Part shown: piece by piece, positions 1 through 45,163 of the stretch | Layout of the letters: each line of letters begins with the position of its first letter | Position numbering within the stretch: position 1 is the first letter of the stretch | Source: a virus | Virus record (IMG/VR): IMGVR_UViG_3300030328_002738 | Coordinates: 1 to 58,424 of that record | Strand: one strand, 5' to 3' | DNA length: 58,424 nucleotides | Notes under the pieces: model-generated | What the model saw: the letters and a program-made list of their open reading frames with translations, nothing else | Told to the model about the DNA's origin: nothing | The model's database searches: none | Position numbers and translations under genes: made by a program

Positions 1-3000
1 TCACGAACTGGGGAAAATGTTGAGGGTCCTTTTTTCTTACTTAATATGCAACAACCATCAACAGATTTAGATTTAAATAAAGAACTAGAATGGTTTAATG
101 CTAACATGCCTAAAGATTCTAATGGTAATCCTATTGTTGGGATCGATATAGTACAAGGATTAATAGATGGTAAAGCTTTTGGTAAGTTTACTAAACATGG
201 TAATATACTATTATCTAATTTATTAAATACTCCAGGTATAATCTATCATGAATCTTGGCACGCTATTACTAGACGTTTTATAGCCCCAGACCAAAGATTT
301 GCTATGTACGATGAGGTTAGAGGTATGAGGGGGTCAACTACTACTTATAAAGGAGAGACTAAAAAGATGTCACAGCTTACTGACAAAGAAGCTGATGAAT
401 GGTTAGCAGAAGAATTTAGAGAATATGTTTTAGCGGGAGGAAATTATAAAGTAGGTAGTAAAATACAAAAAAGTATTTTTGATAAGATATTAAGTATTTT
501 AGACTTCTTTATAAATAATACATCACAAGCTCAAGACTTAATGTCTAAAATTAATACAGGATATTTTAGTAACCCTAATACTAATATAACTATATATGAT
601 TCTAAAACAGAAGCTTATTACGAAGGTACTAGGTTAACTGCTACTATGAGGAATAATACTATGGAAGGAATGACTGTTTTATTATTTCATAAAGGTTTAA
701 AAAATGGCATATTTAATTTAGAGGATTTTGTAGATCCCGATAAAACAGCACAAAGAAATAAAGCAATTAGAAGTCTTTATGGTAAACCAGAAACACTGGG
801 AAGTGTTTATTCACAAATAGAAGCTCATATAAAAGAGCAAATAAAACAAGCTAAGTCTCAAAGAGATATAGATAATCTTGAACAGACTATGCGGGCTATT
901 AGAGATAATTGGCAAACATTACAAGCTGAACATGCTCAATATCTTGAAAGATTTACTATAGATATTACAGAAGAATCTGAGGAATTAGAAAGAATAAGAG
1001 AACAATTTGGTAAGCCTCAAAATGAAATAGATCCTAGCACATATCTTCCTAAAGCGGTAAGACTTTTATTAGCCACATTACCTTTAACAGAAGGAAGAGC
1101 GTTTGCAGTAAATGAAAGCGGTCTCCCTAAATTAGTAGACTTTGGTAGTATAATGAATTTTATGTATAAAGAATTTGCTAATATTAATCCTAAAGATTTT
1201 AAGAAAAATTTAGAAAGGCTTGTAGCTAAAAGGCCAGAAATACAAATATTAATAAATAGATTGAATCTAGATTCAGATGATATATCAACATTAAATGAAA
1301 ATCAAATACGTTTAATAGTTCAAACTATGATGCAATTTAATCAATCTAATAATACTTTTTACACCCAGCTTATGACTAGAGAGGGTGGTAGAAGACTTAT
1401 TAATAGCAATCAAAATAGAGTAGAGGATAAAATAAAATTACTTTGGACTAATAATTTTAAAGAAAATATACAAGACAATAAAGGATTAGGAGAAGATGTA
1501 AATGGAGAATTAATCCTTAACCCAAAAGCTAAAGTAAAAGTTGGTAAAAAATCTAAAACCTTTTCTGATTGGGCAAAAGACATTAAAAGGACTCCGCAAG
1601 AAACATTACTAGTTTTAAATGAATTAGGCATATCTTTTACAAGACCTGATTTATTTACAGAACTATATATAGCTGATGAAAATGTTAGACAAGCATCTAA
1701 TTATATATTTCAAACAGTTTATAATGAACCTGTAAGTAATATATTTAAAGGAGACATTCAGGCTAATTTACAAACATTAGTAAATTTAGAAGCGCAAACA
1801 AATCCTACGAATGTAGATTTACAACATAGAAATCCAGAAGGTAAAACAATACATGGCGTTAATTTAAAAACTTACGCAGATGTATTAATTTCTAATTTAA
1901 CTAAGATTGGCCCAACAGGAGAAAAGATAGTAAATCAAGAAGAGGTTTTAAAATTATTAAACTATGATAATTTAAAAGGGTCTCATTATCTACGAAGCTT
2001 AGCAGAAGATCCATCTTTACCTTTAGAAGTTGTAATATTACAAGGTATAGAACAAAGTGGAGGAAGAGGTAAAATCTTATCAAAAGGATCTCCAGTAGAT
2101 ATTGGTGTTATGATGGTTAACTCTTTATTAACTCAGGGTATTACTCCTATTCTTAGAACTGCAGATAAAAAGACAGAGTTTGGTATCAAATATACAATAC
2201 CATCTCTAATGCTTAGTAGGCAAGATATGGTAGCTAGACTACAAAATTATTTAGCAGACGAACTAAGAGTGGCTTCTACATTTAATAGTAAAAGAAAATC
2301 TAAATTACGTAGAATTTCTACATTAAAAGATAATGGTGGTAATTTAAGATTCTTTAAAGGATTAGTACCTTCAATCGGTAGAACAGAGTATGGTAAAAGA
2401 TTAGATGAAAAGGATATTGAAAATATAGTTAATAGAGAAAGTGTGCTATTAGATTTAAATGCTTTTTTAGATTCTCAAATATTAAAAACAACTAATACGT
2501 TTAAAGAATATAATATACTAGATGGTTTAGATCAAAATTTATTAGAAAGAGCTCAGACAACAGAAGCTTCAATAGAAGAGCAATTTACATATGAATATCT
2601 TACTTCTGTTAATGAGCAGGGTAAATTATTATTAGGTGATTTTGCATTATACTCAGATCTATTTAAAAGAACTTCTGGAATTAGCGGTACTAAAGTATAC
2701 CCAACATCAGATCCTACTATTTTAAATTGGATGAATGATAATATGCCAAACTTATTATCTAATAAAGAACATACAAAAAATTTAAGAGTTTCACATAGAG
2801 CTGCAATTAAAACAGAAGCTCCTTATTTAGAGCAGTATATGGCTACTTTAGAGTTAATGGGTATGAGCCCAGAGTTTATGAATAATGTTAATGATGTATA
2901 CTCTAATATGGAAGAGTTTGATGGTGGTGGATTTATAACATTAGATGCTTATAGAAGTTTATTATGGAGAACAGGAAAATGGACTATTCCTCAAGAAGAA

Positions 3001-6000
3001 TTTTATCAAAAAATAGCTAGAGGCAAAGAGATAACAACTCAAGATATGGCCCTTATACCTCCTATAAAACCTCAACTATTTGGTCCTTACGTTGTTGAGA
3101 ATTCTAGGTTAATGACATTTCATAAATTTGCATTATTTCCAATAATTCCTAATATGGGTGGGCTAATGCCAGAAACTTCTTTTGATGATATTAATCAAGA
3201 TATGATTGAGAATGATATTGACTATATGATATTTGAATCTGCAGTTAAAGTGGGAGGAGTAGTTATGAATGAAGATGGCTATGACCCATTCTACGAAGAA
3301 TTACCTACAGGATATAGTGCTTATAAAGATATGGGGCTTGATGAAAAAGGGCAGCCTTTCGGATTACAAGAATTAAGTTTTTCAGATTTAGGTATACAAG
3401 TAGAAACTGCTCCAAAAACTAAACAAACAGTTAGAGAAGGATCTCAATCTCGTTCTTTATTACCTATAAATGTATATGATAGGGGTGAACTATCTGAAGG
3501 ATACCAAGATTTTGAAAAATTAATTGATACTTATCATGAAGTTAATGAAGAATTAGTAGCACGAGATTTTAATAATTTAACTAAGAAACTTAAACTAGTT
3601 AAGGATGAGTCAGGAGTATATAAATTAGAATCAGATGATATAGAAGAATTTAAAAAAGTTCTTATACAGGAATTTAAAAAGAGAGATAACCCTCTTCACA
3701 CTATAGCTGCATTAGAAGGTTTATTAGAAAGTGATACTAAATTTATAGAACAATTATTTGAAAAAAATAAAATAGAGAATTTATTATATTCTATTGTAAA
3801 TAATAATGTAGTTAGAAGAGAGATGCCAGGAGGACAATTCGTATTACAAGCGTCTACAGGATTTGAACATAAAATTAAAGCTATTAAACAAAAAGATTTT
3901 GAATTAGCTGATAAAGATGGTATAGATTTACATGGAAATAAATTAAAACCATTAAAGTTTTATAGAAAAGCAGATCCTGATAATTTAAGTTCAGAAACTT
4001 TAGCGATGCAAGTTTACTTACCTAGTAGATTTAAAGATCAAATGGGAGCTCTTGAAGAAGATATTAATTTAGTAGATCCTGAATTACTGCAATTAATAGG
4101 TTTCCGTATTCCAACAGAGGGTCTTAACTCTATGGACTTTATAGAAGTAGTAGGATTTTTACCTAAAGCATATGGAGACACAGTAATTGTACCGTCTGAA
4201 ATTGTAGGTAAAGCTGGATCCGATTATGATATTGATAAATTAAGTATTTATTTCCCTAATTCAACTAAAGAGGGTAAAAGAGTAAAATTTGATCCAAGTA
4301 AATCTGTTAAAGAACAATCTAAAGCGGCTCTACAAAATGAACTACAAACTATTATGAGAGATGTTCTGAGTCATCCAGCAAGTTTTGATCAGTTAATATC
4401 TCCTGTAGGAGCATCAACATTAAAAGAAGTAGCTCAAGAGATAGCAATGTTAAGAAATCCTAATAACTTTGATCTTGAAGGTAATAAGATTAAGAAAAAC
4501 TTAAGTGAAACATTGCAGTTAGAAAATATGATAAATACTTCATACAGAATGTTCTCAGGTTTAGGAGGTATAGGTATTGTAGCTACTAGTTCTACACAGC
4601 ATGCTAAAGGACAAAGACCGGGATTAAATTGGAACTTTGCAAATAATGAAGATATAGTATTTAATTTTGCTGGAGAAGGTTTTGGACTATCTAGTGTATA
4701 TGATATAAAAGGAGTAGATAAAATTAGTGGTACTATTGGACAATATGTTACGGGATATGTTGATGTAACTAAAGAAGATTTTGTATTTGATATTAATGCT
4801 GGTATAGAAATGGCCCCTATACATATGTTACTAGTTAGATCTGGAGTACCTTTAAAAACAGTAGCTTATTTTATGTCACAACCTATTATAGATGATTATG
4901 TAAAATTAAAAGAATTGAATCAACCTATGTATTCTTTTTCTCCTCTATTATCAAACAGTGAAATAGAATCTGAGTTAACTTCTAAATATGGGAATACTAG
5001 TAGTTCTAATATTAAATTTACAGAAGATTCTTTACGTAGTATGGTAGGTAAAGATGTTACAAATTTAGAAGATTTAGAAAAAAGAAAACAAATTCAAATT
5101 TTAAATGACTTCTTAAGATATAAAGATTTAGCAGAAGATTTATTAATTTTAAAAGATGCTTCTAGTGTAGATACTTCTAGGTTAAATAATGGAATAGCAG
5201 TTAGGTATGTTAAGCAACTTATAAATAGACTAGAACAGGATGGTAAATTTATAAATCTTGATGAATTATTATATGGGAATAAAGAAGGCGCTTCTACAGT
5301 AGCTGGATATACTAAACTATTAAATGAGATTGATGGAATGTTTGCTGATTTTAAATTAGGAGAATATTTAACAGATGCTAGACAATTTATAGATAATAAA
5401 TTATTTGAATTAACAGATAAGGATTTAAAAGTAAATAGAGAAGATGCTATAAATAAAATGAAAAAATTTGAAAACTTCTTAGCTACAACAGTAGTTCAAA
5501 GAACTTCATGGGAGTATAACAAGTTAGAAGACAGGGGTAGAGATTTATTTGTAGGTCAAAATAGCTTACCTAGAAGAATCAATACTTTAAAGAAAATGCC
5601 TGCATATGCAAATAATTTACTAATGCAAGAATTAACTCCTATCTTACAAGTATATACTGAAGACAGTGTAGAATCAACTGTAGACGGTTTAAGACTATTT
5701 AGTAGAAAACTTCAACCATATGATATAGATTTATTGGCGGATGCATTTTTAGAATTAAAAGAAATTAATCCTGTAATAGCTAGAGAACTAATTATATTTA
5801 GTGCTCTGCAATCTGGATATGAATTTTCACCAACTTCATTTTTCCAAATTATTCCTGGAACAGAGGTTCTAGAAGTACTATCTCCATATTTTAAACAAAA
5901 TAAAAATGAAGATAGAACAAGTAATCTTATTAATCATACAACTATAAACAGTTTATGGGATGATTTCCATAAAAACTATTCTTATGATTCTGCTGTAGCT

Positions 6001-6390
6001 CCTAATATATATAGAAAGAATGTATATAATAATCTTACATTAAATAAAAATCATAACTTTGTTACTGTAACTACAATTGTAGGTAGAGAATTAATTGGAA
6101 GTAAAGAATCTTTAAAGTATGACACTTTATTATATAAGAATACAGGGAAAGTTACTGATAAAGGATTATCAATTTATACAAAAATAGATAAAAAGGGAGT
6201 TAAAAATAGTTTTGTAGAAGCAACTGGAGCAAATACTCCATCAATAATAAATAGAAATACAGGAGTTATTGCTAAAAAAGAAGAAGGTGAACCTGAAGTA
6301 TCTAATACAGTACTAACAGTTAAAAGAAACCTAAATAATGAAATCCAAAACGTTATTAATGAAGAGGATAAAGGTTGTAAAAAAACATAA
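1..6390 (+). CDS. crAss-like virion RNA polymerase, giant protein (5' partial)
   Basis: This is probably the single-subunit RNA polymerase that crAss-like phages package and inject to transcribe early genes. The reading frame is open from base 1. The first ATG (46) has no leader typical of this genome and is preceded by 15 sense codons, so the true start lies upstream of the window. Numbering from that ATG, an HExxH motif (HESWH, residues 68-72) with E122/E123 downstream suggests an N-terminal zincin-like metallopeptidase domain. The sequence GSDYDIDKL (D1393, D1395, D1397) matches the DxDxD metal-binding motif of the two-barrel RNA polymerase fold known from Cellulophaga phage phi14:2 and relatives. 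Most of the remaining 2100 residues have no motif I can name. The gene is followed after 3 bases by a second giant gene, so the two are probably co-expressed late and packaged together. The polymerase call is strong; the peptidase call rests on one motif. Confidence 0.83.
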   Translation, partial: SRTGENVEGPFFLLNMQQPSTDLDLNKELEWFNANMPKDSNGNPIVGIDIVQGLIDGKAFGKFTKHGNILLSNLLNTPGIIYHESWHAITRRFIAPDQRFAMYDEVRGMRGSTTTYKGETKKMSQLTDKEADEWLAEEFREYVLAGGNYKVGSKIQKSIFDKILSILDFFINNTSQAQDLMSKINTGYFSNPNTNITIYDSKTEAYYEGTRLTATMRNNTMEGMTVLLFHKGLKNGIFNLEDFVDPDKTAQRNKAIRSLYGKPETLGSVYSQIEAHIKEQIKQAKSQRDIDNLEQTMRAIRDNWQTLQAEHAQYLERFTIDITEESEELERIREQFGKPQNEIDPSTYLPKAVRLLLATLPLTEGRAFAVNESGLPKLVDFGSIMNFMYKEFANINPKDFKKNLERLVAKRPEIQILINRLNLDSDDISTLNENQIRLIVQTMMQFNQSNNTFYTQLMTREGGRRLINSNQNRVEDKIKLLWTNNFKENIQDNKGLGEDVNGELILNPKAKVKVGKKSKTFSDWAKDIKRTPQETLLVLNELGISFTRPDLFTELYIADENVRQASNYIFQTVYNEPVSNIFKGDIQANLQTLVNLEAQTNPTNVDLQHRNPEGKTIHGVNLKTYADVLISNLTKIGPTGEKIVNQEEVLKLLNYDNLKGSHYLRSLAEDPSLPLEVVILQGIEQSGGRGKILSKGSPVDIGVMMVNSLLTQGITPILRTADKKTEFGIKYTIPSLMLSRQDMVARLQNYLADELRVASTFNSKRKSKLRRISTLKDNGGNLRFFKGLVPSIGRTEYGKRLDEKDIENIVNRESVLLDLNAFLDSQILKTTNTFKEYNILDGLDQNLLERAQTTEASIEEQFTYEYLTSVNEQGKLLLGDFALYSDLFKRTSGISGTKVYPTSDPTILNWMNDNMPNLLSNKEHTKNLRVSHRAAIKTEAPYLEQYMATLELMGMSPEFMNNVNDVYSNMEEFDGGGFITLDAYRSLLWRTGKWTIPQEEFYQKIARGKEITTQDMALIPPIKPQLFGPYVVENSRLMTFHKFALFPIIPNMGGLMPETSFDDINQDMIENDIDYMIFESAVKVGGVVMNEDGYDPFYEELPTGYSAYKDMGLDEKGQPFGLQELSFSDLGIQVETAPKTKQTVREGSQSRSLLPINVYDRGELSEGYQDFEKLIDTYHEVNEELVARDFNNLTKKLKLVKDESGVYKLESDDIEEFKKVLIQEFKKRDNPLHTIAALEGLLESDTKFIEQLFEKNKIENLLYSIVNNNVVRREMPGGQFVLQASTGFEHKIKAIKQKDFELADKDGIDLHGNKLKPLKFYRKADPDNLSSETLAMQVYLPSRFKDQMGALEEDINLVDPELLQLIGFRIPTEGLNSMDFIEVVGFLPKAYGDTVIVPSEIVGKAGSDYDIDKLSIYFPNSTKEGKRVKFDPSKSVKEQSKAALQNELQTIMRDVLSHPASFDQLISPVGASTLKEVAQEIAMLRNPNNFDLEGNKIKKNLSETLQLENMINTSYRMFSGLGGIGIVATSSTQHAKGQRPGLNWNFANNEDIVFNFAGEGFGLSSVYDIKGVDKISGTIGQYVTGYVDVTKEDFVFDINAGIEMAPIHMLLVRSGVPLKTVAYFMSQPIIDDYVKLKELNQPMYSFSPLLSNSEIESELTSKYGNTSSSNIKFTEDSLRSMVGKDVTNLEDLEKRKQIQILNDFLRYKDLAEDLLILKDASSVDTSRLNNGIAVRYVKQLINRLEQDGKFINLDELLYGNKEGASTVAGYTKLLNEIDGMFADFKLGEYLTDARQFIDNKLFELTDKDLKVNREDAINKMKKFENFLATTVVQRTSWEYNKLEDRGRDLFVGQNSLPRRINTLKKMPAYANNLLMQELTPILQVYTEDSVESTVDGLRLFSRKLQPYDIDLLADAFLELKEINPVIARELIIFSALQSGYEFSPTSFFQIIPGTEVLEVLSPYFKQNKNEDRTSNLINHTTINSLWDDFHKNYSYDSAVAPNIYRKNVYNNLTLNKNHNFVTVTTIVGRELIGSKESLKYDTLLYKNTGKVTDKGLSIYTKIDKKGVKNSFVEATGANTPSIINRNTGVIAKKEEGEPEVSNTVLTVKRNLNNEIQNVINEEDKGCKKT

Positions 6391-6393
6391 TAT

Positions 6394-9300
6394 ATGGCTT
6401 GCAGAATAATAAGAAACGATAATAATACAATATCTAAAGTATTAGCTAAAAATGGTAAAGAATCAAGACTATTTAAAGATATAGTGGCATTAGGATATGA
6501 TAAAGAAACCGCTTTAAAGAAGTGGGCCCTTGTATATACTCCTACATTCAAACAATGGTTTGGTCAAGGAAACGTAGATATTAATGGAGAACCAAGAATT
6601 GTAATGGTAAATCAAGATCCAGTATTTATATCTGATAGTAATAGTACAAAACATGCTACTGAAAATCTAGGTACATTTACATCTAAAAAAGACCCTTCCC
6701 CATTATTAAATAATATAAAACAACGATTTAATCTAGTTAAAAAAGATGGTAATGTAAGAAATATACCTTATTTAGAGAATGCTATGGCTATAGCTGAAAC
6801 TATAGAAAAGAAATATCCTGGTGTAAGAGCTTTTGTACTACAAGATATGGGAGGGGATTACATTAAATTAGATGTTACTCCACATTTAGACCCAGATAAT
6901 ATATATCATCAAGCAGAGGCTCTAGAATTAGCTGAGAGAGATGAGGCTGTAGATTTAGCTATGACTCAGTTTTTAAGATCTATAGGAGTAAAACTTAAAG
7001 AAGTTTCTGAAATAAGAGATAGTAAAGGTAATATTATACCTGTAATTGCTAAAGCTGACATGGTAAATAAACTTGTAGAATATGCTAAAGGTAAAATTGG
7101 AGTAGACACACTACCTGAAGAAGCAGCTCACTTTATGGTAGAGTTATTACAAGCAGAAGGTAGCCCATTATTTGACTCGATGATGAACAATATACAGTCA
7201 TTTGGGGTATACCAAGATGTCATAGAAAGCGACGTATATCAAAAACTGTATAAAGGTGATATAAATAAACTTAAAAAAGAAGCTATAGGTAAGCTTATAG
7301 CAAAGGTTATAGTAAATAAATTTATAGAAGAATCTCCAGCTAATATTAGAAGAGCTACCACTTGGTGGGACAGACTGGCAAACTTTATACGAAGTATATT
7401 TGGAAAAGTACAAAGTGATCCATATGCAGAAGCTGCGCAAATGATGCTTAATGCAGCTGTAGATGATCATGTAAATGTTAAAAGAGGTATGGGTAATGTT
7501 ATGGGAGAATATTATCAAGAATCACCTATAGTTAAAAAAGATAAAGTAGGTAACACTATAGATAGGTTAAATAAAGAAAATGAGAATTGGGAAATTGAAA
7601 GAGTATCTTTAGAAGAAGCCGGATTAAAACAACCATGGTTTGTTGAAGAAGGAAATGAAACTGAAAGATATGTAGGTAAAAAAGATGGTTCTTATCCTGG
7701 AAAAGTAATTAAAGGAAGAGTATCTGACGCAGTTAAAAAACATTTTTGGAAAATAAATAGAGGGAAAATTACAGATCTTAGCGGAAAACAAAAACAACTT
7801 CGTTTAGATAATAATGAAATGAGAAAAGTAACAGGTACTGCAGGGCACCACACTATGCAAGAACTTGTTGAATTATATGCCAATAAGAAAGGTAAAAGAG
7901 CAGATATACTTAAAGCTTCTATTTTTACTGAAGCTCAATTTAATGTTTTAGAACAAGGAATAAAAGACCTTTTAGCTCAAATTAGAAAAGTTCAAAGAGA
8001 GGAGATAGATCCTAAAGGCAAAGTAATTATAAGAACAGAGCAATTAATTACTAATAAGGAGCAAAGTGTTGGTGGTTCTATCGATCTTCTTGCTGTATTT
8101 AGTGATAATTCTGCGGCTATATATGATTATAAATTTGTATCACCGTCTAAAGCAGCTGGATATGTAGATAGAATTACTAATAGAATAATAGAGGATCCTT
8201 TTAACGTTAAGATGACAACGTATGATTTACAGATGTCTCAATATAAACAGAGTTTAGAGCAAACTTATGGAATAACCAAAGTTAGACAATCTAGAATAGT
8301 TCCTATACATATTAGATATAAAACCGCTAAAGATGGTAAACTAACAAATCAAATAACTGTGGTTCAGATGGGGACCAAATATAGTGAATTCTTACAGCAA
8401 ATTCCGGTGGCCGGTGAATTAACTAGTTTTGATGATATAAATAAAATTATTAAAAAGTTATTAGTAAGAAAAGCAGCTGTTGATAGACAACTACAAACTA
8501 AAAAATATAAAGCAGGCGCTTCTTTTGAGTCTCTTAAAGCTCAGCAAGCTAAAATAGCTAAGCAATTAAGAGTATTACAAATAGATCAGGATTTAGCATA
8601 TGTTATAAAGTCTCTTGAAGAAGATAAAAAAATAATAGATACTAAATTAGCTACTAATAATGAGTTTTTAAAATCAGGAGAACTCAATCCAAATTATTTA
8701 ACAAATCAAGATTTAAATGATTTATTAAATGATTTAATGTTTTATCAATCATTAGTTAATATTCATGACTTTGTAGAGGTTATGGATAAAAAGAAACAAG
8801 AAGAATATAGAATAGTTAGAGATAGACTTGCAGGATTTATTGGTCCTGCAATTACCGCGGTACAAGGAAAGATGTTAGAAAGAACTAGTGACAATGCTCA
8901 AAAACGTGGAATACAAGGTATTAAGTCTTTTAATTTAGATGTTAGTTGGGCTACTACTAATTTTGTTAATTTATCTAAACAAACAAATCCTTATTTAAGA
9001 AATTTATGGGAAATGATGGATAAATTAAACTATACTAAAAGAAGAATAGTTAAACAAAAAGCAGAAGAAATTCAAGCTGCTCAAGATGCATTTGTAGCGG
9101 GACGAGGTATTAAGGCGTTTGATGATTTACTAAATGAAGATGGGTCTTTTAAATCTAAATTTTCTAGTGAGTATTATACTAGAAGGGCCTCAGCGATTAA
9201 ATCAAATGATTACAGTTGGTTTTCTGAAGAAGCAGGCAATGTAGTTATAGATAAAGAATATTATGATAAAAAATATAAAGAATTCAGGGCGGGTAAATTA

Positions 9301-11538
9301 AAAGCTTTGAAAGGAAAGTTTGGGGATAACCAAAAAGCAATAAATAGAGAACTAACTAAATGGGAAATAGCACATGATGTTAAAAACCATAGGAAAACGG
9401 CATCTATAAATAAAGGAGGTCAATACTTTTTAAGACCAGCTGAAAAATGGATTAGTGAAGACTATCTTAAAATTCAAAATGATCCTGCTACAAAAGCGTT
9501 TTATGATTTATATTTTAAAACCATTAATGAAGTAGAAGAAATGTATGGAGAAAGATTGGGACCTAATTTTACAGCTGAAGTACATAAAGGATTTATTGAA
9601 TCTTCATGGGTTAATGGATCATTTAGCGAAGCAATGGATTCTTCTATAGAAAATTTTCAAGTTAGAGAACATGATTTAATGTATGGTATAAGAGATGAAA
9701 ATACCGGGCGGTTAATAAAACAAATACCTAAATTATATGTTAGGCCTTTAAGAGATAAGAATGGTAATATAGATTCATCATTAAAATCTAGAGATTTAGG
9801 TAAAGGTTTATTATTATTGTTTGATGCTGCTTTAGATTATCAATTAAAAAGTGATATACTTCCTGAAATACAAATGATGGAAGGAATTTTAAGTACTAAT
9901 GCTATTGATGTACAATCTACGGATAGTTTTGGTAATATATTAGAGAATGCAACTAATATGGATACAGAGAGACCTAAAAAGTTATATGAAACATATCAAA
10001 ATTTTGTAGATGCTTATATATATGGTACTGATCTAAATTCTAAAGATCTCAAATTAGGAACCAGAACTAGTGCTGTTAAATCTGTTTTAGGTTTAAAGAA
10101 TTTACATTCTATTGCTCAATTAGGATTTAAAACTCCTGTTGCTATAGGAGCTTTTGCTGCTGGTATGTTTGGATTAGAGTATGAAGCCTCTAAAGGAACG
10201 TTTATAACTAGAAAAAACTTAAGAAAGGCCCAACTAGCTTTAATGAAAGCAGATCCTAAAATGAGAGCGTTAGTAGAGCATTTAGACTATTACCAAAGAA
10301 ATGATGCTCAAGTAAGAGCAGATAGACTCTCAGCACAATATGTAACAAGGCACATGACTAATGATAAATGGTTTGCTTTCTTATCTACCGCGGACCGGGG
10401 AATTGACGCTATAACGTTATATGCAACTGCATTAAATTTTGGTGTAAATGAAGATGGAATGGTAACAAGATTAGATAGATTACCAGAGAATTCAAAAAAT
10501 ATTGTAGAATTAATGGAGATAGAACAAAATTCATTATGGGAAGGAACAACAACTAATGTATCAAATAAAGCGGTAGATAGATACAAAGTTAAAATCGAAG
10601 GATTATCAGAAGAAGGAGAGTTAAAAATGAGAAATATAGGTAGGGAAATATCTTTTAAAGTAAAAGGAAGTATGACTGATGAAGATAAAGTACTATATAA
10701 TCAAAACTTCTTTTTAAAGTTAATGATGCATTATAAGTCTTGGCTACCTGGTGTAGCAATGGCTAGATTTGGTAAACAAAGATATAGTAATATATTAGAA
10801 ACATTTGATGAAGGTACTTGGGTGAGTTACTTTAGTAATACTCAAATGTCAATATTTAATAGTCCTGTTGAAGCTTTAGATACAGAGGTTCATGCAATGA
10901 ATATCTTAAAAACTGTATTTTTAGATGCTGCTAGCGCAATAACTGATGCAATAACATTTGGAGTTTTTAATCTAAATGAAGTAAAAGAAGATTTAGCTAG
11001 AGCTAGGTTTGATATGTGGGCTGCTAATAATGCTAATAATCCTCAATTTTCAGAGAAACTAAAGGATGAAGCCGCTCGAGAAGAGTTATTTAAAGAATAT
11101 CTAATAATGAAAAGGGGTAATATAAGGGCCTTTTTAATGGAGCTTAGATCTGTTATAGCTTTATTTGCGCTATTAATGTCTATTTCAGGAGATGATGATG
11201 AAGATGGAAAAATGGATATAAGACAAACGTATGCGGGAAGAAAACTACACAATATAGTAAGCAGAGTATATAGAGAAACAGCTGTATTTATGAATCCGGG
11301 TGAATTTCTTGAATCTGGTAGAGCAACAGGTATACCTATGCTTAATTTAGTAAATCAAGGCGTTAAACTTGTAGAAAATACTATAGATGAAACTGGTGAT
11401 TTATTAAGTGGCGAAGCTCCATATGATAATAAAGATAGAACGGAAAGATTCTATTATACATTTAAGTTAACTCCTGGTTTAAATGCATTAAGTAAAGGGA
11501 TAGAAATGTTCCCACAACAAAAATACGAAAGATACTAA
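6394..11538 (+). CDS. giant virion protein with RecB-like PD-(D/E)XK domain
   Basis: A 1714-residue protein, probably packaged in the capsid and ejected with the polymerase encoded just upstream (3-base gap). Near the N-terminus, FKQWFGQGNVDINGEP (residues 52-67) resembles the FKxWFGDSKVVDENGEP opening of phage MuF-type effector domains. Residues 481-491 (GTAGHHTMQEL), D564 and D578-Y-K580 form the GxxxHxxxE ... D ... DxK pattern of RecB/AddB-type PD-(D/E)XK nucleases. A hydrophobic stretch near residues 1580-1597, followed by an acidic run, lies near the C-terminus and could help membrane passage. The long charged middle part looks helical. The nuclease could act on host DNA or process phage DNA on entry; neither can be shown here. 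Co-packaging is inferred from position and size. Confidence 0.62.
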   Translation: MACRIIRNDNNTISKVLAKNGKESRLFKDIVALGYDKETALKKWALVYTPTFKQWFGQGNVDINGEPRIVMVNQDPVFISDSNSTKHATENLGTFTSKKDPSPLLNNIKQRFNLVKKDGNVRNIPYLENAMAIAETIEKKYPGVRAFVLQDMGGDYIKLDVTPHLDPDNIYHQAEALELAERDEAVDLAMTQFLRSIGVKLKEVSEIRDSKGNIIPVIAKADMVNKLVEYAKGKIGVDTLPEEAAHFMVELLQAEGSPLFDSMMNNIQSFGVYQDVIESDVYQKLYKGDINKLKKEAIGKLIAKVIVNKFIEESPANIRRATTWWDRLANFIRSIFGKVQSDPYAEAAQMMLNAAVDDHVNVKRGMGNVMGEYYQESPIVKKDKVGNTIDRLNKENENWEIERVSLEEAGLKQPWFVEEGNETERYVGKKDGSYPGKVIKGRVSDAVKKHFWKINRGKITDLSGKQKQLRLDNNEMRKVTGTAGHHTMQELVELYANKKGKRADILKASIFTEAQFNVLEQGIKDLLAQIRKVQREEIDPKGKVIIRTEQLITNKEQSVGGSIDLLAVFSDNSAAIYDYKFVSPSKAAGYVDRITNRIIEDPFNVKMTTYDLQMSQYKQSLEQTYGITKVRQSRIVPIHIRYKTAKDGKLTNQITVVQMGTKYSEFLQQIPVAGELTSFDDINKIIKKLLVRKAAVDRQLQTKKYKAGASFESLKAQQAKIAKQLRVLQIDQDLAYVIKSLEEDKKIIDTKLATNNEFLKSGELNPNYLTNQDLNDLLNDLMFYQSLVNIHDFVEVMDKKKQEEYRIVRDRLAGFIGPAITAVQGKMLERTSDNAQKRGIQGIKSFNLDVSWATTNFVNLSKQTNPYLRNLWEMMDKLNYTKRRIVKQKAEEIQAAQDAFVAGRGIKAFDDLLNEDGSFKSKFSSEYYTRRASAIKSNDYSWFSEEAGNVVIDKEYYDKKYKEFRAGKLKALKGKFGDNQKAINRELTKWEIAHDVKNHRKTASINKGGQYFLRPAEKWISEDYLKIQNDPATKAFYDLYFKTINEVEEMYGERLGPNFTAEVHKGFIESSWVNGSFSEAMDSSIENFQVREHDLMYGIRDENTGRLIKQIPKLYVRPLRDKNGNIDSSLKSRDLGKGLLLLFDAALDYQLKSDILPEIQMMEGILSTNAIDVQSTDSFGNILENATNMDTERPKKLYETYQNFVDAYIYGTDLNSKDLKLGTRTSAVKSVLGLKNLHSIAQLGFKTPVAIGAFAAGMFGLEYEASKGTFITRKNLRKAQLALMKADPKMRALVEHLDYYQRNDAQVRADRLSAQYVTRHMTNDKWFAFLSTADRGIDAITLYATALNFGVNEDGMVTRLDRLPENSKNIVELMEIEQNSLWEGTTTNVSNKAVDRYKVKIEGLSEEGELKMRNIGREISFKVKGSMTDEDKVLYNQNFFLKLMMHYKSWLPGVAMARFGKQRYSNILETFDEGTWVSYFSNTQMSIFNSPVEALDTEVHAMNILKTVFLDAASAITDAITFGVFNLNEVKEDLARARFDMWAANNANNPQFSEKLKDEAAREELFKEYLIMKRGNIRAFLMELRSVIALFALLMSISGDDDEDGKMDIRQTYAGRKLHNIVSRVYRETAVFMNPGEFLESGRATGIPMLNLVNQGVKLVENTIDETGDLLSGEAPYDNKDRTERFYYTFKLTPGLNALSKGIEMFPQQKYERY

Positions 11539-34352: not shown

Positions 34353-34642
34353 TGGATTTTTTAGAAGATATGGAACTCTATAATCAGGCTATGAGAAACG
34401 CTTATTTTATTATAACTAAAAGAAAGACTTTAGATGATATTTATTATGACTTAGAAGAAGGTAGAATAGAAACTTTACCTTTACCATTTGATCCGATACA
34501 TGAAGATGGGAGAACTGAAGATATAATAGATATAGTTATAGAGTATTTCACAAGTACAGAAGAGTATGAAAAATGTGCAGAATTAGTTAAAATAAAAGAA
34601 AGATGTTTAAACATACCGATAGAGTCAGACAAGCTGCAATAA
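34352..34642 (+). CDS. hypothetical acidic protein, 96 aa, before terminase
   Basis: An acidic helical protein (MDFLEDMELYNQAMRNAYFI ...). Its 3' end overlaps the large terminase start by 40 bases. No motif is recognised. Either this or the 171-residue protein just upstream could be the packaging partner of the terminase; the sequence does not decide. Confidence 0.5.
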   Translation: MDFLEDMELYNQAMRNAYFIITKRKTLDDIYYDLEEGRIETLPLPFDPIHEDGRTEDIIDIVIEYFTSTEEYEKCAELVKIKERCLNIPIESDKLQ

Positions 34643-36567
34643 CTTTCCTTAAAAAAGGTAGGTTTACGGATGCGCTTCCGGGAACAAAAGATTATTATGA
34701 TCATTGGGATGAGGAGCGTAAAAGATGTATGTATGGATATACAGTAGATGAATTACATGTTACTGGATTTCATTATTTTTATTTAAATTATTGTCCTATT
34801 GATAGAGCTATAGATGAAGAGTTACCAGATGGTACAATACAATCTAGACGTGAGCGTAGTTTTCCAAGTTTTTATGATGGAGATTGGGAGTATTTCCAAG
34901 AAATAGATAAAGCTAGATCAGAAAATAGACATATGATTGTCCTTAAAGCAAGGAGAAAAGGATATTCTTATAAAGCTGGAGCAATGCTTGCACGTAATTA
35001 TTTCTTTGTAAAAAATTCTAAAAACTTCGTATTTGCAGCACAAAAAGAATACCTTATTGGTGATGGACTTCTATCTAAAGCATGGGAGTTTTTATCTTTT
35101 ATAGATGATAATACAGCATGGGCTCAACCTAGATTAAGGGATAGAGAAATGCATAAAATGTCTGGATATAAAAAGAAAGTAAATGGATTAGAAATTGAGA
35201 TGGGTATGAAATCTCAAATTATGGGGGTATCATTAAAAGATAATCCTGATAAAGTAAGGGGTAAGGCAGGTGAGCTTGTTTTCTTTGAAGAAGCGGGATC
35301 ATTCCCTGGATTACTAAAAGCATGGGAGGTAACAATGCCAACAATGAGACAAGGTGCAAAAACATTAGGATTAATGGTGGCATTTGGTACAGGTGGTACA
35401 GAAGGCGCAGATTTTGAAGCTATGGAAGAGATATTTTATAATCCAGAAGCATATGATTGTATGGCTTATGAAAATATATGGGATGAAGGAGCTATGGGTA
35501 GTATATGTGGGTATTTTATTCCAATACAAAAGAATTTAGATGGATTTATAGATAGTAATGGTAACTCTTCTGTACTTAAAGCAACAGAGTATGAAATAGA
35601 AATGAGGGAGAAGAAAAAAGGGGCTGCTGATGCAAAATCTTTAGACCAATATATAGCTGAGCACCCCTTCTCTCCACAAGAAGCTACATTACAAGTAACT
35701 GCTAATTTATTTGATGTAGCATCTTTACAAGAACAATATAATAATGTAAAAGCTAACAATCTACATTCTGTAGGTACTGTAGGTAAATTATATTATGGTG
35801 CTAATAATGAAGTTAAATTTAAAGTAGATGGTAATTTAAAACAAGTTCTAAAATTTCCACATAGAAAAGATGATGATACAACAGGAGCAGTAGTTATATA
35901 TGAATCTCCTTATAAAAATCAACAACAACAAGTACCTTTAAATATGTATGTAATTTGTCATGACCCCTATGGTCAAAATCAATCTGCAGATTCATCTTCA
36001 TTAGGAGCTGCATATGTACTTAAAAGACCTAATAATTTATCACATCCAGATGACCTTATTGTAGCTTCTTATGTAGGTAGACCAAAAACACAAGACGATT
36101 ATAATAGAAATTTATTTATGTTAGCAGATTATTATGGATGTAAGATAGGATTTGAAAATGATCGTGGAGAAGTTATAGCATACGCAAAAAGATATAGAAA
36201 GATGCATAAACTACAAGAAGAGTTTGAAATGTTAGATAAAAGAGAGCTTAGAAGTAAGACTGTAAAGCGTCAATATGGTATGCATATGACAGAAGCAAGG
36301 AAGCGTCAAGGAGAGATATATATAAGAGATTGGTTAAATACTGTAAGAAGAACAGATGAAAATGGAAATAAATTACTAAACTTGCATAAGATATATGATC
36401 CAGCATTGCTAACAGAGCTTATTAAGTTTAACCATGCAGGTAACTTTGACCGTGTAATGGCGTTTATGATTGGTATGTATCACACAAGAGAATTATATAA
36501 TGCAGAGGTTAAAGATATATTAGAAGATCGAGCCGCAGATAAGTGGTTTGATAAAAATTATTATTAA
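34603..36567 (+). CDS. terL: terminase large subunit
   Basis: A 654-residue packaging motor. The ATPase Walker A-like segment is KARRKGYSYK (115-124), a variant seen in many phages of Bacteroidota. Walker B is LVFFEEAG with E229/E230. The C-terminal RNase H-like nuclease shows CHDPYG (D454) and GFENDRGE (E518, D520). The gene is followed by SET-domain, portal, scaffold and capsid genes, as expected for a packaging/head module. The ATG lies 40 bases inside the previous gene. The motor would translocate DNA into proheads through the portal encoded 0.4 kb downstream. Confidence 0.9.
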   Translation: MFKHTDRVRQAAITFLKKGRFTDALPGTKDYYDHWDEERKRCMYGYTVDELHVTGFHYFYLNYCPIDRAIDEELPDGTIQSRRERSFPSFYDGDWEYFQEIDKARSENRHMIVLKARRKGYSYKAGAMLARNYFFVKNSKNFVFAAQKEYLIGDGLLSKAWEFLSFIDDNTAWAQPRLRDREMHKMSGYKKKVNGLEIEMGMKSQIMGVSLKDNPDKVRGKAGELVFFEEAGSFPGLLKAWEVTMPTMRQGAKTLGLMVAFGTGGTEGADFEAMEEIFYNPEAYDCMAYENIWDEGAMGSICGYFIPIQKNLDGFIDSNGNSSVLKATEYEIEMREKKKGAADAKSLDQYIAEHPFSPQEATLQVTANLFDVASLQEQYNNVKANNLHSVGTVGKLYYGANNEVKFKVDGNLKQVLKFPHRKDDDTTGAVVIYESPYKNQQQQVPLNMYVICHDPYGQNQSADSSSLGAAYVLKRPNNLSHPDDLIVASYVGRPKTQDDYNRNLFMLADYYGCKIGFENDRGEVIAYAKRYRKMHKLQEEFEMLDKRELRSKTVKRQYGMHMTEARKRQGEIYIRDWLNTVRRTDENGNKLLNLHKIYDPALLTELIKFNHAGNFDRVMAFMIGMYHTRELYNAEVKDILEDRAADKWFDKNYY

Positions 36568-36904: not shown

Positions 36905-36975
36905 TGTTATATTTATAAGAATATATATAATATTAAGATACTATGTAAAAGCGATTAGAAATTTAACTAAATTTG
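36903..36975 (+). promoter_or_regulatory. two-box element before the portal gene (possible late promoter P3)
   Basis: AGTGTTATAT (36903-36912) begins at the SET gene stop, and TAAATTTG (36968-36975), a -7-like box, starts 65 bases later, just before the portal ATG (36982). The same two boxes with a 63-base distance precede the scaffold gene. No TTTG -33 box is present, so a different activator may be needed. Confidence 0.45.
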
Positions 36976-36981
36976 TCCACT

Positions 36982-39264
36982 ATGGGATACGATAAAATAC
37001 CAAGGCAAAAATTGCCTTTGTCTAAGAAGACTAAACAATGGAAAGAAGACTGTGTAGAAGCATACATAGACCTTTCTCAATCTGGCCGTAGTGCTGGTAG
37101 CAACAGAAAAGAATCTTTACAATCACTATATGAATACTATAACGGTGTAATTGATGAGGCGGATTACAACTATGTACTAAAACCTTACGGTAAATCTCGT
37201 AGTAATTTCCCTTCTCAACTGCGTAATTATCCCATAATTAAACCTATCGTTGATCTTTTGTTAGGAGAAAAATCCAAAAGGCCTCTCAATTTCACTGTTA
37301 CAGTTCAAAACGCTGATGCTGTCTCTACTAAAGAGCAAGCAAAAAGTGATTTAATTTATCAAAGTTTTCAAAAGCAATTTGCAAATGAATTAATTAAAAA
37401 TGGAAACTATCAAGGTGAAGAACAAGAAGTAGAATTACCTCAACAAATAGCAGATCAATTTGAAGCTAGTTATGTAGATAATAGAGCAATTAAAGGACAG
37501 CAAGCTGTAAATTATATAATGCACAGTCAAGAAATACATGATAAACTTCAAAAAGCTTGGGCTCATTTTTTAATAGCAGGAGAAGTATATACTCATAGAG
37601 GAGTTAGAAATAATGAGCCTTTTTATGAAATATTAAATCCATTAGATGTAGATTTTGATTTAGATCCAGATTTAGATTTTGTAGAAGATGGAGATTGGGC
37701 TTTAGTTAGAAAATATGTTCACGCTTCAAGTGTTATTGATACTTATTATGAATATTTATCAGATCAACAAATAGCAGAATTAGAAGAGCCAAGACATTCA
37801 GAATCTGATTCGTATTTCTTATATACTAATTCTATGAATAAAGATGCAAACGCATATAGAAATAGATTAATAGAAGTAGCTCAAGTTTATTGGAAATCTA
37901 GAAAACGTATTGGATTTTTAACTTATATGGATATGGAATCTGGGGCAATAGAAGAACAGGTGGTAGAAGATGGATTTAAAATGCCTTTAGAATTAAGAGA
38001 ATTAGGTGCTAAACTAGAATGGAAATGGGTAAATGAAGTTTGGGAAGGAACAAGAATAGATGGTAGAGTTTATATTAAAATTCACCCTCTTGTTAATCAA
38101 AGAAATTCTTTAGATAATCTTTCTACTTGTAAATTACCAATTAATGGTATAAGATATTCTAACTTAAACGCTTCTAATATATCTCTAGTAAAATTAGGGA
38201 TACCTTACCAGTTAAACTATAATATATACAAATATAGATTAGAACTTGCTATTGCTAAAAGTAAAGATATTGTTGCTTCTTTTGATATTAATATGATCCC
38301 TAAAAAATGGGATATGGATAAATTTATGTATTATGTTGAAGGTACAGGTATAGCTTGGGTAGATTATAATAAAGAAGGAATACAATTAAATCCACAACAT
38401 CAATCTGTTATGGATATGTCTATTAAAACAATAGAACAATATATTACTTTACTAGAATCTATAATGCAAGAATGGGAAAAACTATCTGGAGTAAATAGAC
38501 AAAGACAGGGACAAGTAGGTAGCTATGAAGGTAAAGCAACTTCACAACAAGCTATCGTACAATCTTCTCATATTACTGAAGATTTATTTCGTAAATTTAA
38601 TAGATTAGAACAAAGAGATTTGCAATCATTACTTGATTATTCTAAAGAAGCATGGTTAGCTGGAAAGAAAACAATGTATGTTATGCCTGATGGTACAACA
38701 GATTTTTTAGATTTAGAAAGTATGGAGCATATGGAATCTAATTATGGTATATTCTTATCAGATTCTGGTAAAGAACAAGATAAATTAGATAACATAAAAC
38801 AATTATCTCAAGCAATGATTCAAAATGGAACACCAGCCTCAACTGTAGCTGAAATGTTTGATGCAGATAGTTTTACTCAAATTAAACATAAAATAAAACT
38901 AGCTGAAAGAGAAATGCAAGCATTAGAAGCTAAACAAGCTGAAGCACAGCAAGCTCAACAGCAAGCTGAATTAGAACAAAAAGCTAAAGAAGCTGAAGAT
39001 GAAAATATGAATAAAGAAAAAGATAGGGAAACTCAAATTAAAGTTGCTCTGATTCATGCTAGAGATAATGATACTAATGCTCAATTAAATCTAGCTAAAG
39101 GTATGAGAGAGTTAGATATTAAAGAAAGAGAAGTTGAAATTAAAGCTCAAGATAATAGAGACAAAGCTGATACTAACAGACAAACTGCAAATATTAAAAG
39201 AGAAGAAACTAAATCTAAAGAAAGAATAGCTAAATCTAAAAATAACAAACCTTCTAGTAAATAA
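36982..39264 (+). CDS. portal protein
   Basis: A 761-residue protein placed between terminase and scaffold/capsid genes. The start is set at ATG 36982 (MGYDKIPRQK); a TTG 9 bases upstream lies within the promoter-like box. The region FPSQLRNYPIIKPIVDLLLGEKSKR resembles portal N-terminal segments of crAss-like and related phages. The C-terminal 150 residues are a long Ala/Gln/Glu/Lys-rich coiled coil (after EREMQALEAKQAEA), typical of large podovirus portals whose barrel projects into the capsid. The product forms a dodecameric DNA channel at one vertex. Confidence 0.8.
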   Translation: MGYDKIPRQKLPLSKKTKQWKEDCVEAYIDLSQSGRSAGSNRKESLQSLYEYYNGVIDEADYNYVLKPYGKSRSNFPSQLRNYPIIKPIVDLLLGEKSKRPLNFTVTVQNADAVSTKEQAKSDLIYQSFQKQFANELIKNGNYQGEEQEVELPQQIADQFEASYVDNRAIKGQQAVNYIMHSQEIHDKLQKAWAHFLIAGEVYTHRGVRNNEPFYEILNPLDVDFDLDPDLDFVEDGDWALVRKYVHASSVIDTYYEYLSDQQIAELEEPRHSESDSYFLYTNSMNKDANAYRNRLIEVAQVYWKSRKRIGFLTYMDMESGAIEEQVVEDGFKMPLELRELGAKLEWKWVNEVWEGTRIDGRVYIKIHPLVNQRNSLDNLSTCKLPINGIRYSNLNASNISLVKLGIPYQLNYNIYKYRLELAIAKSKDIVASFDINMIPKKWDMDKFMYYVEGTGIAWVDYNKEGIQLNPQHQSVMDMSIKTIEQYITLLESIMQEWEKLSGVNRQRQGQVGSYEGKATSQQAIVQSSHITEDLFRKFNRLEQRDLQSLLDYSKEAWLAGKKTMYVMPDGTTDFLDLESMEHMESNYGIFLSDSGKEQDKLDNIKQLSQAMIQNGTPASTVAEMFDADSFTQIKHKIKLAEREMQALEAKQAEAQQAQQQAELEQKAKEAEDENMNKEKDRETQIKVALIHARDNDTNAQLNLAKGMRELDIKEREVEIKAQDNRDKADTNRQTANIKREETKSKERIAKSKNNKPSSK

Positions 39265-43720: not shown

Positions 43721-45163
43721 ATGGCAAACAACGGAACGAACATAAGCGTCCAAAAGACGTTTTACAATGACTCGCAAATGACAGACATGAATAGTCTATC
43801 AAATGCATTGTTGGCAAAACCGACTGAACTGTCTCCAATTATTACTCACTTAGCAGGAAAAGACGATAAAAGATTCCCACTATCTTTCTTAACAGAAGGT
43901 GTTGGAAATGTTAAATCTATTGACCGTTTGGAGTATGAGTATCGTGTGGCAACGCATAGATTGAGAACGAGACCAGTAGCGGCAACACCAGCAATAACAG
44001 CAAATGTAGGAATAGGGGGAGCAACTTTTGAGTTGGAATTTCCTGACAAACATTTTGTATTTCCATACGTATTAGTATCTCAAGCAGGTACTCAAGCACG
44101 TATTATGAAAGAACCAGAAGCAGTAGGTTCTAACTGGAAATACACTTTACAATTAATCAACCCAGCAGCTTCAGCAACAGTTGCAGCAGCAGATATTACA
44201 GTTGGAGCTCTTTGGGCTCAAATGTATGCACCTGTAGGAGTAGACTTCTCTAGAGGTAATGCTTCTAACTGGGAAACTCCAGGTAAAGTAAGAAATAAAC
44301 TAACTACGGTTAGAAAATCTTACCACATGTCTGGAAACGCTAAAGATTATGTAGCAGAATTTTCTCTACCAACTAAAGGTGGATCTACTACTAAACTTTG
44401 GATGGACTATGAAGAGTACTTACACATGCTTGACTTTAAAGAAGAGTGTGAAATGTACTACTGGTATGGTCAAAAAACTTATGATACTAACGGAGCTACT
44501 TTCATGAAAGATGAAAATGGACAACCAGTAATTGTAGGCCCTGGTCTATTAGAGCAAATCATTAATACTGATACTTACTCTACTATGACTGAAACCAAAT
44601 TAAAGAACATCATTGGTGATTTATTTTATCAAATGACTGATGCTGCTCAAAAACAAGTAACTCTTTATACTGGTACTGGTGGTGCTAGAGAATTTGATGA
44701 GGCACTTAAATCTCACTTCTCAAGTAATACTTGGAAAGTTGGAGGAGAGAATCGTTTCATCACTGGATCTGGTAGATCATTAGGTATGAGTGGGTACTTT
44801 ACTTCGTATGAGCATATTGATGGACATAGTGTAAATGTTGTAAAACTTCCTATGTTTGATCATGGTGCAGTTGCACAAGCTCGCGCGAAACACCCTGTTA
44901 CAGGATACTCTCTTGAGTCTTATAGAATGGTATTTGTTGATCAATCTAATTATGATGGTCAAAACAATTTACAAATGATCTCTAAGAAAGGTCGTGAGTC
45001 TATGAGATGGTGTGTAGCTGGATCTGTAGTCCCTAGAGGATTTGATTCAACTTCATCTAGAGCATCTGATGTTGATGGGGCGTCTGTACACATGTTAAAA
45101 ACTGCAGGTATCGCGTTAAGACGTTTTGATACTTCTTTAGACATTACTTGTACGGCATCTTAA
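43721..45163 (+). CDS. major capsid protein
   Basis: A 480-residue protein following the scaffold gene, with a strong A-rich leader (AACTTTAAAAATAATTAGAAA) and its own terminator 44 bases after the stop, both fitting very high expression. Its N-terminal helix (MTDMNSLSNALLAKPTELSP) and mixed alpha/beta composition fit the HK97-type fold of crAss-like capsid proteins. Codon use has more C-ending codons than its neighbours, another mark of high expression. Lower-scoring alternatives such as a tail protein are unlikely given the order terminase-portal-scaffold-capsid. Confidence 0.83.
   Translation: MANNGTNISVQKTFYNDSQMTDMNSLSNALLAKPTELSPIITHLAGKDDKRFPLSFLTEGVGNVKSIDRLEYEYRVATHRLRTRPVAATPAITANVGIGGATFELEFPDKHFVFPYVLVSQAGTQARIMKEPEAVGSNWKYTLQLINPAASATVAAADITVGALWAQMYAPVGVDFSRGNASNWETPGKVRNKLTTVRKSYHMSGNAKDYVAEFSLPTKGGSTTKLWMDYEEYLHMLDFKEECEMYYWYGQKTYDTNGATFMKDENGQPVIVGPGLLEQIINTDTYSTMTETKLKNIIGDLFYQMTDAAQKQVTLYTGTGGAREFDEALKSHFSSNTWKVGGENRFITGSGRSLGMSGYFTSYEHIDGHSVNVVKLPMFDHGAVAQARAKHPVTGYSLESYRMVFVDQSNYDGQNNLQMISKKGRESMRWCVAGSVVPRGFDSTSSRASDVDGASVHMLKTAGIALRRFDTSLDITCTAS

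Follow-up and report, generated by a model that had tools for sequence, protein, structure and literature searches.

A zincin-like domain in the giant cargo protein fused to a crAss-like phage RNA polymerase

Introduction

The 58,424-nucleotide stretch of viral DNA analysed here (the window) opens with a long frame in which a HESWH motif and the DYDID motif of an RNA polymerase stand on the same chain, raising the question of what a putative metallopeptidase does in the company of a polymerase, and to which protein it belongs. An earlier, sequence-only reading had placed the HESWH motif near the N terminus of a crAss-like virion polymerase.

Orthologous crAss-like polymerases are known to be present in virions and to transcribe early genes. 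In crAss001 the cargo proteins gp47, gp49 and gp50 have all been detected in the virion by mass spectrometry (PMC10172136), and the window phage has the same gp47/gp50/gp49 three-protein cassette. Iyer et al. 2017 (PMC5512222) described a zincin in the virion RNA polymerase (vRNAP) of phage N4 and put forward autoprocessing for polyvalent phage proteins; as far as we could see, crAss-like phages are not mentioned there. Nor is a zincin named in crAss-like cargo in the literature that we searched, though other papers may report one.

Results

The polymerase and its truncated frame

The phage tests as a member of the Crassvirales by its Crassvirus capsid, portal and terminase (Table 1). The polymerase part of the first frame matches the phi14:2 gp66 RNA polymerase (PDB 6VR4, E=3.1e-25) and this homology, together with the DxDxD motif, supports the assignment of a crAss-like two-barrel RNA polymerase, as the sequence-only reading had it from the DYDID motif. 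We infer its virion status from homology and from published mass spectrometry of orthologues. The polymerase core is common to phi14:2 gp66 and the window chain; by contrast, gp66 has no detectable zincin, a hidden one having been searched for and not found, and phi14:2 carries instead a zincin of another type (type B) in gp65, compared with the type A of the window.

The frame (2129 residues) runs unbroken to its stop codon and is open at its 5' end, at the edge of the window. The source record, a linear virus record of 59,633 bases, has the same first base as the window, and because the record begins there and the frame is 5'-open, the gene is, on the sequence evidence, cut by the record end, with about 2,000 residues missing. 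The two close full-length homologues (L002 and L003), each a single frame, have 4079 and 4206 residues, and in them the HExxH motif stands at residues 2016 and 2154, respectively. The apparent N-terminal location of the motif is thus an artefact of the truncated record; in full-length proteins it lies mid-chain.

Table 1. Coordinates of the features discussed, numbered on the window.
Feature	Position (bp)	Strand	Residues or length	Basis
Fused giant cargo protein, 3' half: gp47-type C-terminal module (zincin), then crAss-like RNA polymerase	1..6390	+		
Zincin domain as modelled	25..774	+	residues 9-258	88-sequence alignment, AlphaFold2, structural neighbours
HESWH (predicted metal-ligand His pair and catalytic Glu)	247-261	+	residues 83-87	
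Glu133 in the E-x-x-A-E helix, predicted as third metal ligand	397..399	+	residue 133	alignment column 188, E 113/117
Glu137, predicted second shell	409-411	+	residue 137	
Approximate gp47/polymerase junction	690..810	+		ends of separate gp47-type genes (L183, L245, L246; L004/L008)
DYDID catalytic motif of polymerase, within GSDYDIDK	4222-4236	+	residue 1408	
Giant cargo protein, crAss001 gp49-type	6394..11538	+	1714 aa	
EEAAH, counterpart motif in second, degenerate-looking zincin-related domain	7117..7131	+		family motif [E/H]ExxH...E
Terminase large subunit	34603..36567	+		PHROGs E<1e-130; about 41% identical to cr60_1
Portal protein	36973..39264	+		PHROGs match E<1e-130
Crassvirus major capsid protein	43721..45163	+		Pfam Crass_capsid E=5.2e-84

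The zincin is a module of the gp47-type cargo protein

In phages that encode the upstream protein separately (cr112, Dulem virus 41, L183, L245 and L246), that protein ends in the zincin, with 140-184 residues following the motif, and in cr112 and L246 the gp47-type gene lies on the strand opposite to the polymerase. Several other loci that look separate are gene fragments, probably reflecting recoded stops or introns, and were left out of this count. In 93 fused chains the distance from the motif to the DxDxD downstream of it has a median of 1398 residues. Since it is C-terminal where the genes are separate, the zincin is, by its position, the C-terminal module of a gp47-type cargo protein and not part of the polymerase, to which it had been ascribed; the window phage has the fused form. 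L246 (102,679 bp) thus carries the window's type of zincin at the C terminus of its gp47-type protein, and crAss001-type phages encode gp47 and the polymerase separately, on opposite strands, compared with one chain in the window phage.

The separate gp47-type proteins of L183, L246, L004 and L008 share a C-terminal tail that has an Arg-Cys or Lys-Cys pair at its very end or close to it.

Fold and metal site

An AlphaFold2 model of the domain (pLDDT 86, pTM 0.73) has the element order helix, strands, HExxH helix and then a later helix bearing Glu133. Its top structural neighbours by VIA-align 2 are PPEP-3 (Z 7.3), the lethal-factor family (7.2), IrrE (6.7) and ArdC (5.9), followed by MATCAP and Spartan; the neighbours are mainly zincins, and a Z of 7 is middling on the tool's own benchmark. 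Foldseek alone gave weak matches, with no PDB entry below E=0.08; the top match (E=0.083) was Escherichia coli YfcM, which to our knowledge is not a peptidase. The zincin assignment is made because the neighbour list is consistent and the HExxH...E pattern is conserved, rather than from any single score.

Both elements expected of a gluzincin, i.e. HExxH and a Glu on a later helix, are present (HESWH and Glu133) and conserved, Glu133 being invariant in one alignment (A1); the domain alignment (A5) comprised 88 homologous sequences. At the level of sequence no curated MPTase family in Pfam, NCBIfam or PHROGs matches the type-A domain above threshold, a PDB sequence search with it returned nothing reliable, and its best matches in a viral model library are other crAss-like proteins. 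Taken together, homology, a confident model with zincin neighbours and strict conservation bear out the proposal of a metallopeptidase-like domain in the polymerase chain, including the zincin-like fold that it predicted. The domain is real and ancient, and we hold it to be very probably a metal-binding zincin.

Conservation across crAss-like loci

An initial, zincin-anchored scan used HExxH-like patterns and was therefore motif-biased; conservation was recounted on three scans of viral contigs made with polymerase alignments. These yielded 236 loci and 185 distinct polymerases, of which 153 had sufficient flanking sequence. A type-A zincin is present at the junction in 104 of these 153 complete distinct loci (HExxH in 72, HExxE in 30, others in two). 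Among the 117 distinct loci with an aligned site, the first His is kept in 116, the following Glu in all 117 and the third-ligand Glu in 113, so that, in loci selected through their polymerase, few columns of the domain are as well conserved as those of the metal site. The expectation that HExxH itself would be conserved held for 81 of 117 domains; the others comprise 35 with HExxE and a single decayed domain.

Where type A is lacking (49 loci), type B, the kind found in phi14:2 gp65, is present in 25, and 19 of the remaining 24, which have neither, have another HExxH in a long frame. From shuffled proteins about 0.05 HExxH motifs per cassette are expected and in most locus classes 0.8-1.5 are seen, which, with the near-invariance of the first His and Glu, rules out HESWH as a chance motif. 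The idea that every cassette has an intact HExxH somewhere was rejected, as 26 of 29 HExxE loci without type B have none in their long frames.

Full decay was seen in a single junction zincin, that of L244 (residues about 1947-2163), which reads W-E-x-x-R, with Thr as third ligand; it is the sole domain without the first His, and its other ligands are gone too.

Alternation of His and Glu at the fifth motif position

The fifth motif position is His in 81 domains, Glu in 35 and Arg in one (the decayed L244), with only CAT/CAC and GAA/GAG codons for the former two and no intermediate residue, even though a His-to-Glu exchange needs two base changes. Quick trees, made without bootstrap, require seven His/Glu changes on the polymerase tree and seven on a zincin tree with the position-5 column masked, at least six of them on supported branches. 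With the identical number in the masked zincin tree, exchange of the domain between phages is not supported as the source of the alternation. In L238 and its near-copy L272, HExxE occurs together with His in the third-ligand column.

A related pattern is seen in the downstream gp49-type protein, which has a strongly conserved domain related to the first zincin (hhalign E=5.6e-7), whose first motif position, among 196 sequences, is Glu 155 times and His 37 times; searches with Foldseek and VIA-align did not clearly match this EEAAH domain to a zincin fold.

The His/Glu variants look like retained, altered metal sites rather than products of decay, a reading resting on the flips at the junction, on L238/L272 and on the downstream domain, which is mostly EExxH and has HExxH members. 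Zincin families with substituted motifs are known, in which other replacements are preferred at position 5 (PMC3650047); a His/Glu metal-site variant of the present kind is not described for zincins in the literature searched. We tentatively suggest, as a possibility below even likelihood, that packaged zincins swap a metal-binding His for Glu while keeping a working metal site tied to phage entry; if true, such a variant would be new against the zincins in that literature.

Relation to zincins of other ejected proteins

By hhalign the profiles of types A and B are related to each other (E=1.1e-10). The type-B profile in turn matches N4 vRNAP (E=8e-6, at the HExxH region) and, at E about 1e-8, three solved podovirus proteins that are ejection proteins or internal to the virion (8vb2, 23sg and 9sfn); the HExxH motif and the later Glu line up in these matches. 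A direct HMM comparison of the type-A domain with N4 vRNAP gave no match.

N4 vRNAP (PMC5512222; cryo-EM, PMC12633501) is, like the window protein, a giant ejected polymerase chain with an HExxH zincin. By contrast, its polymerase is of the T7-like single-subunit type and its zincin follows the polymerase, whereas the window polymerase is two-barrel and is preceded by its type-A zincin. The MPTase domains of polyvalent proteins (PF18818 and relatives) are likewise zincins inside giant injected phage proteins, but the Pfam MPTase models do not detect the window domain. The tetrameric ejection protein gp48 of PhiM1 (8vb2, PMC11440229) has an HExxH zincin related to type B (E=1.2e-8) and, in contrast to the window chain, is an ejected podovirus protein without a polymerase; the text of the paper on gp48 does not mention a protease.

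Discussion

The reading that we consider most likely, and favour with reasonable though far from complete confidence, is that the domain is an entry-linked metallopeptidase packaged with the polymerase. The window phage has a gp47-type cargo protein fused to a two-barrel virion polymerase; the gp47 part bears the zincin at its C-terminal end, with a predicted intact metal site comprising His83, His87 and Glu133, with Glu84 as general base. The literature on orthologues suggests that the zincin would be packaged and ejected with the polymerase; during passage of the megadalton cargo through the cell envelope it may trim at least one ejected protein or a protein of the envelope, the gp47/polymerase junction being one possible cut site and not the sole purpose. 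That the domain is an active peptidase is probable. Several findings speak against the reading: the canonical peptidase site is not universal, 35 of 117 domains having HExxE; N4 vRNAP reportedly enters the virion unprocessed (PMC5512222) and was isolated as a full-length protein (PMC12633501); the Foldseek matches are weak and the Z scores middling; and sequence libraries fail to detect the domain. A substrate among the phage's own ejected proteins is a serious, if tentative, possibility; a host protein as substrate is rather unlikely.

Self-cutting of such proteins is an earlier idea (Iyer et al. 2017, PMC5512222), and the sequence-only reading likewise suggested that the peptidase could cut its own chain or neighbouring giant proteins during entry. 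It may be that the zincin acts as a polyprotein protease, cutting the fused chain on its own C-terminal side so that the polymerase is freed, either ahead of packaging or once ejected. The position of the zincin at the module boundary in the 93 fused chains, the fact that a cut at the junction would give the separate-gene layout of crAss001-type phages and the precedent of P1 DdrB (PMC5512222) are all consistent with such a role. Nevertheless we consider it unlikely: phages with separate genes retain an intact HExxH domain, fused phages with HExxE occur, N4 vRNAP stays whole, and no conserved cleavage site was identified. Release of the polymerase cannot be the sole role of the zincin, both because separate-gene phages keep the intact site and because related zincins occur in ejected proteins that lack a polymerase.

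The recurrence of similar domains in polymerase-free ejected proteins also bears on a second alternative, in which the zincin, once ejected, would cleave a protein of the host envelope or of a host defence. The structural neighbours are secreted or injected peptidases, and polyvalent proteins provide a precedent (PMC5512222), yet the strong conservation of the site across very divergent phages better fits a phage-internal or universal target than a changing host one, and we regard a host-directed effector as improbable. A non-peptidase metal domain, i.e. a structural or hydroxylase-like site with HExxE as an ordinary ligand variant, would account for a position 5 that is only His or Glu while the other metal-site residues stay, and for YfcM as top Foldseek match, but is doubtful given that most members keep the full HExxH and Glu set, including a general base unneeded for a purely structural site, and that the closest matches by Z are peptidases.

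Returning to the entry-linked metallopeptidase, injected polymerases that are structurally unrelated (crAss-like and N4), as well as ejection proteins without a polymerase, travel with related zincins, which points to a shared proteolytic or metal-dependent step in the entry of short-tailed phages. With the present assignment, part of the giant cargo that crAss-like phages inject acquires a fold and a chemistry that can be tested, and the natural HExxH and HExxE variants are ready-made comparisons for an assay.

Two minor observations concern gene structure. The polymerase gene of cr108_1 (L005, 9785-10076) is split exactly at DxDxD; the halves lie about 290 bp apart, and the intervening stretch is probably an intron. 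The polymerase genes of L219 and L222 appear to be split in a similar way. Introns and reassigned stop codons have both been published for crAss-like phages. In L013, L254-L256 and L277-L301 the giant genes appear as many short frames under table 11, a fragmentation that is consistent with either.
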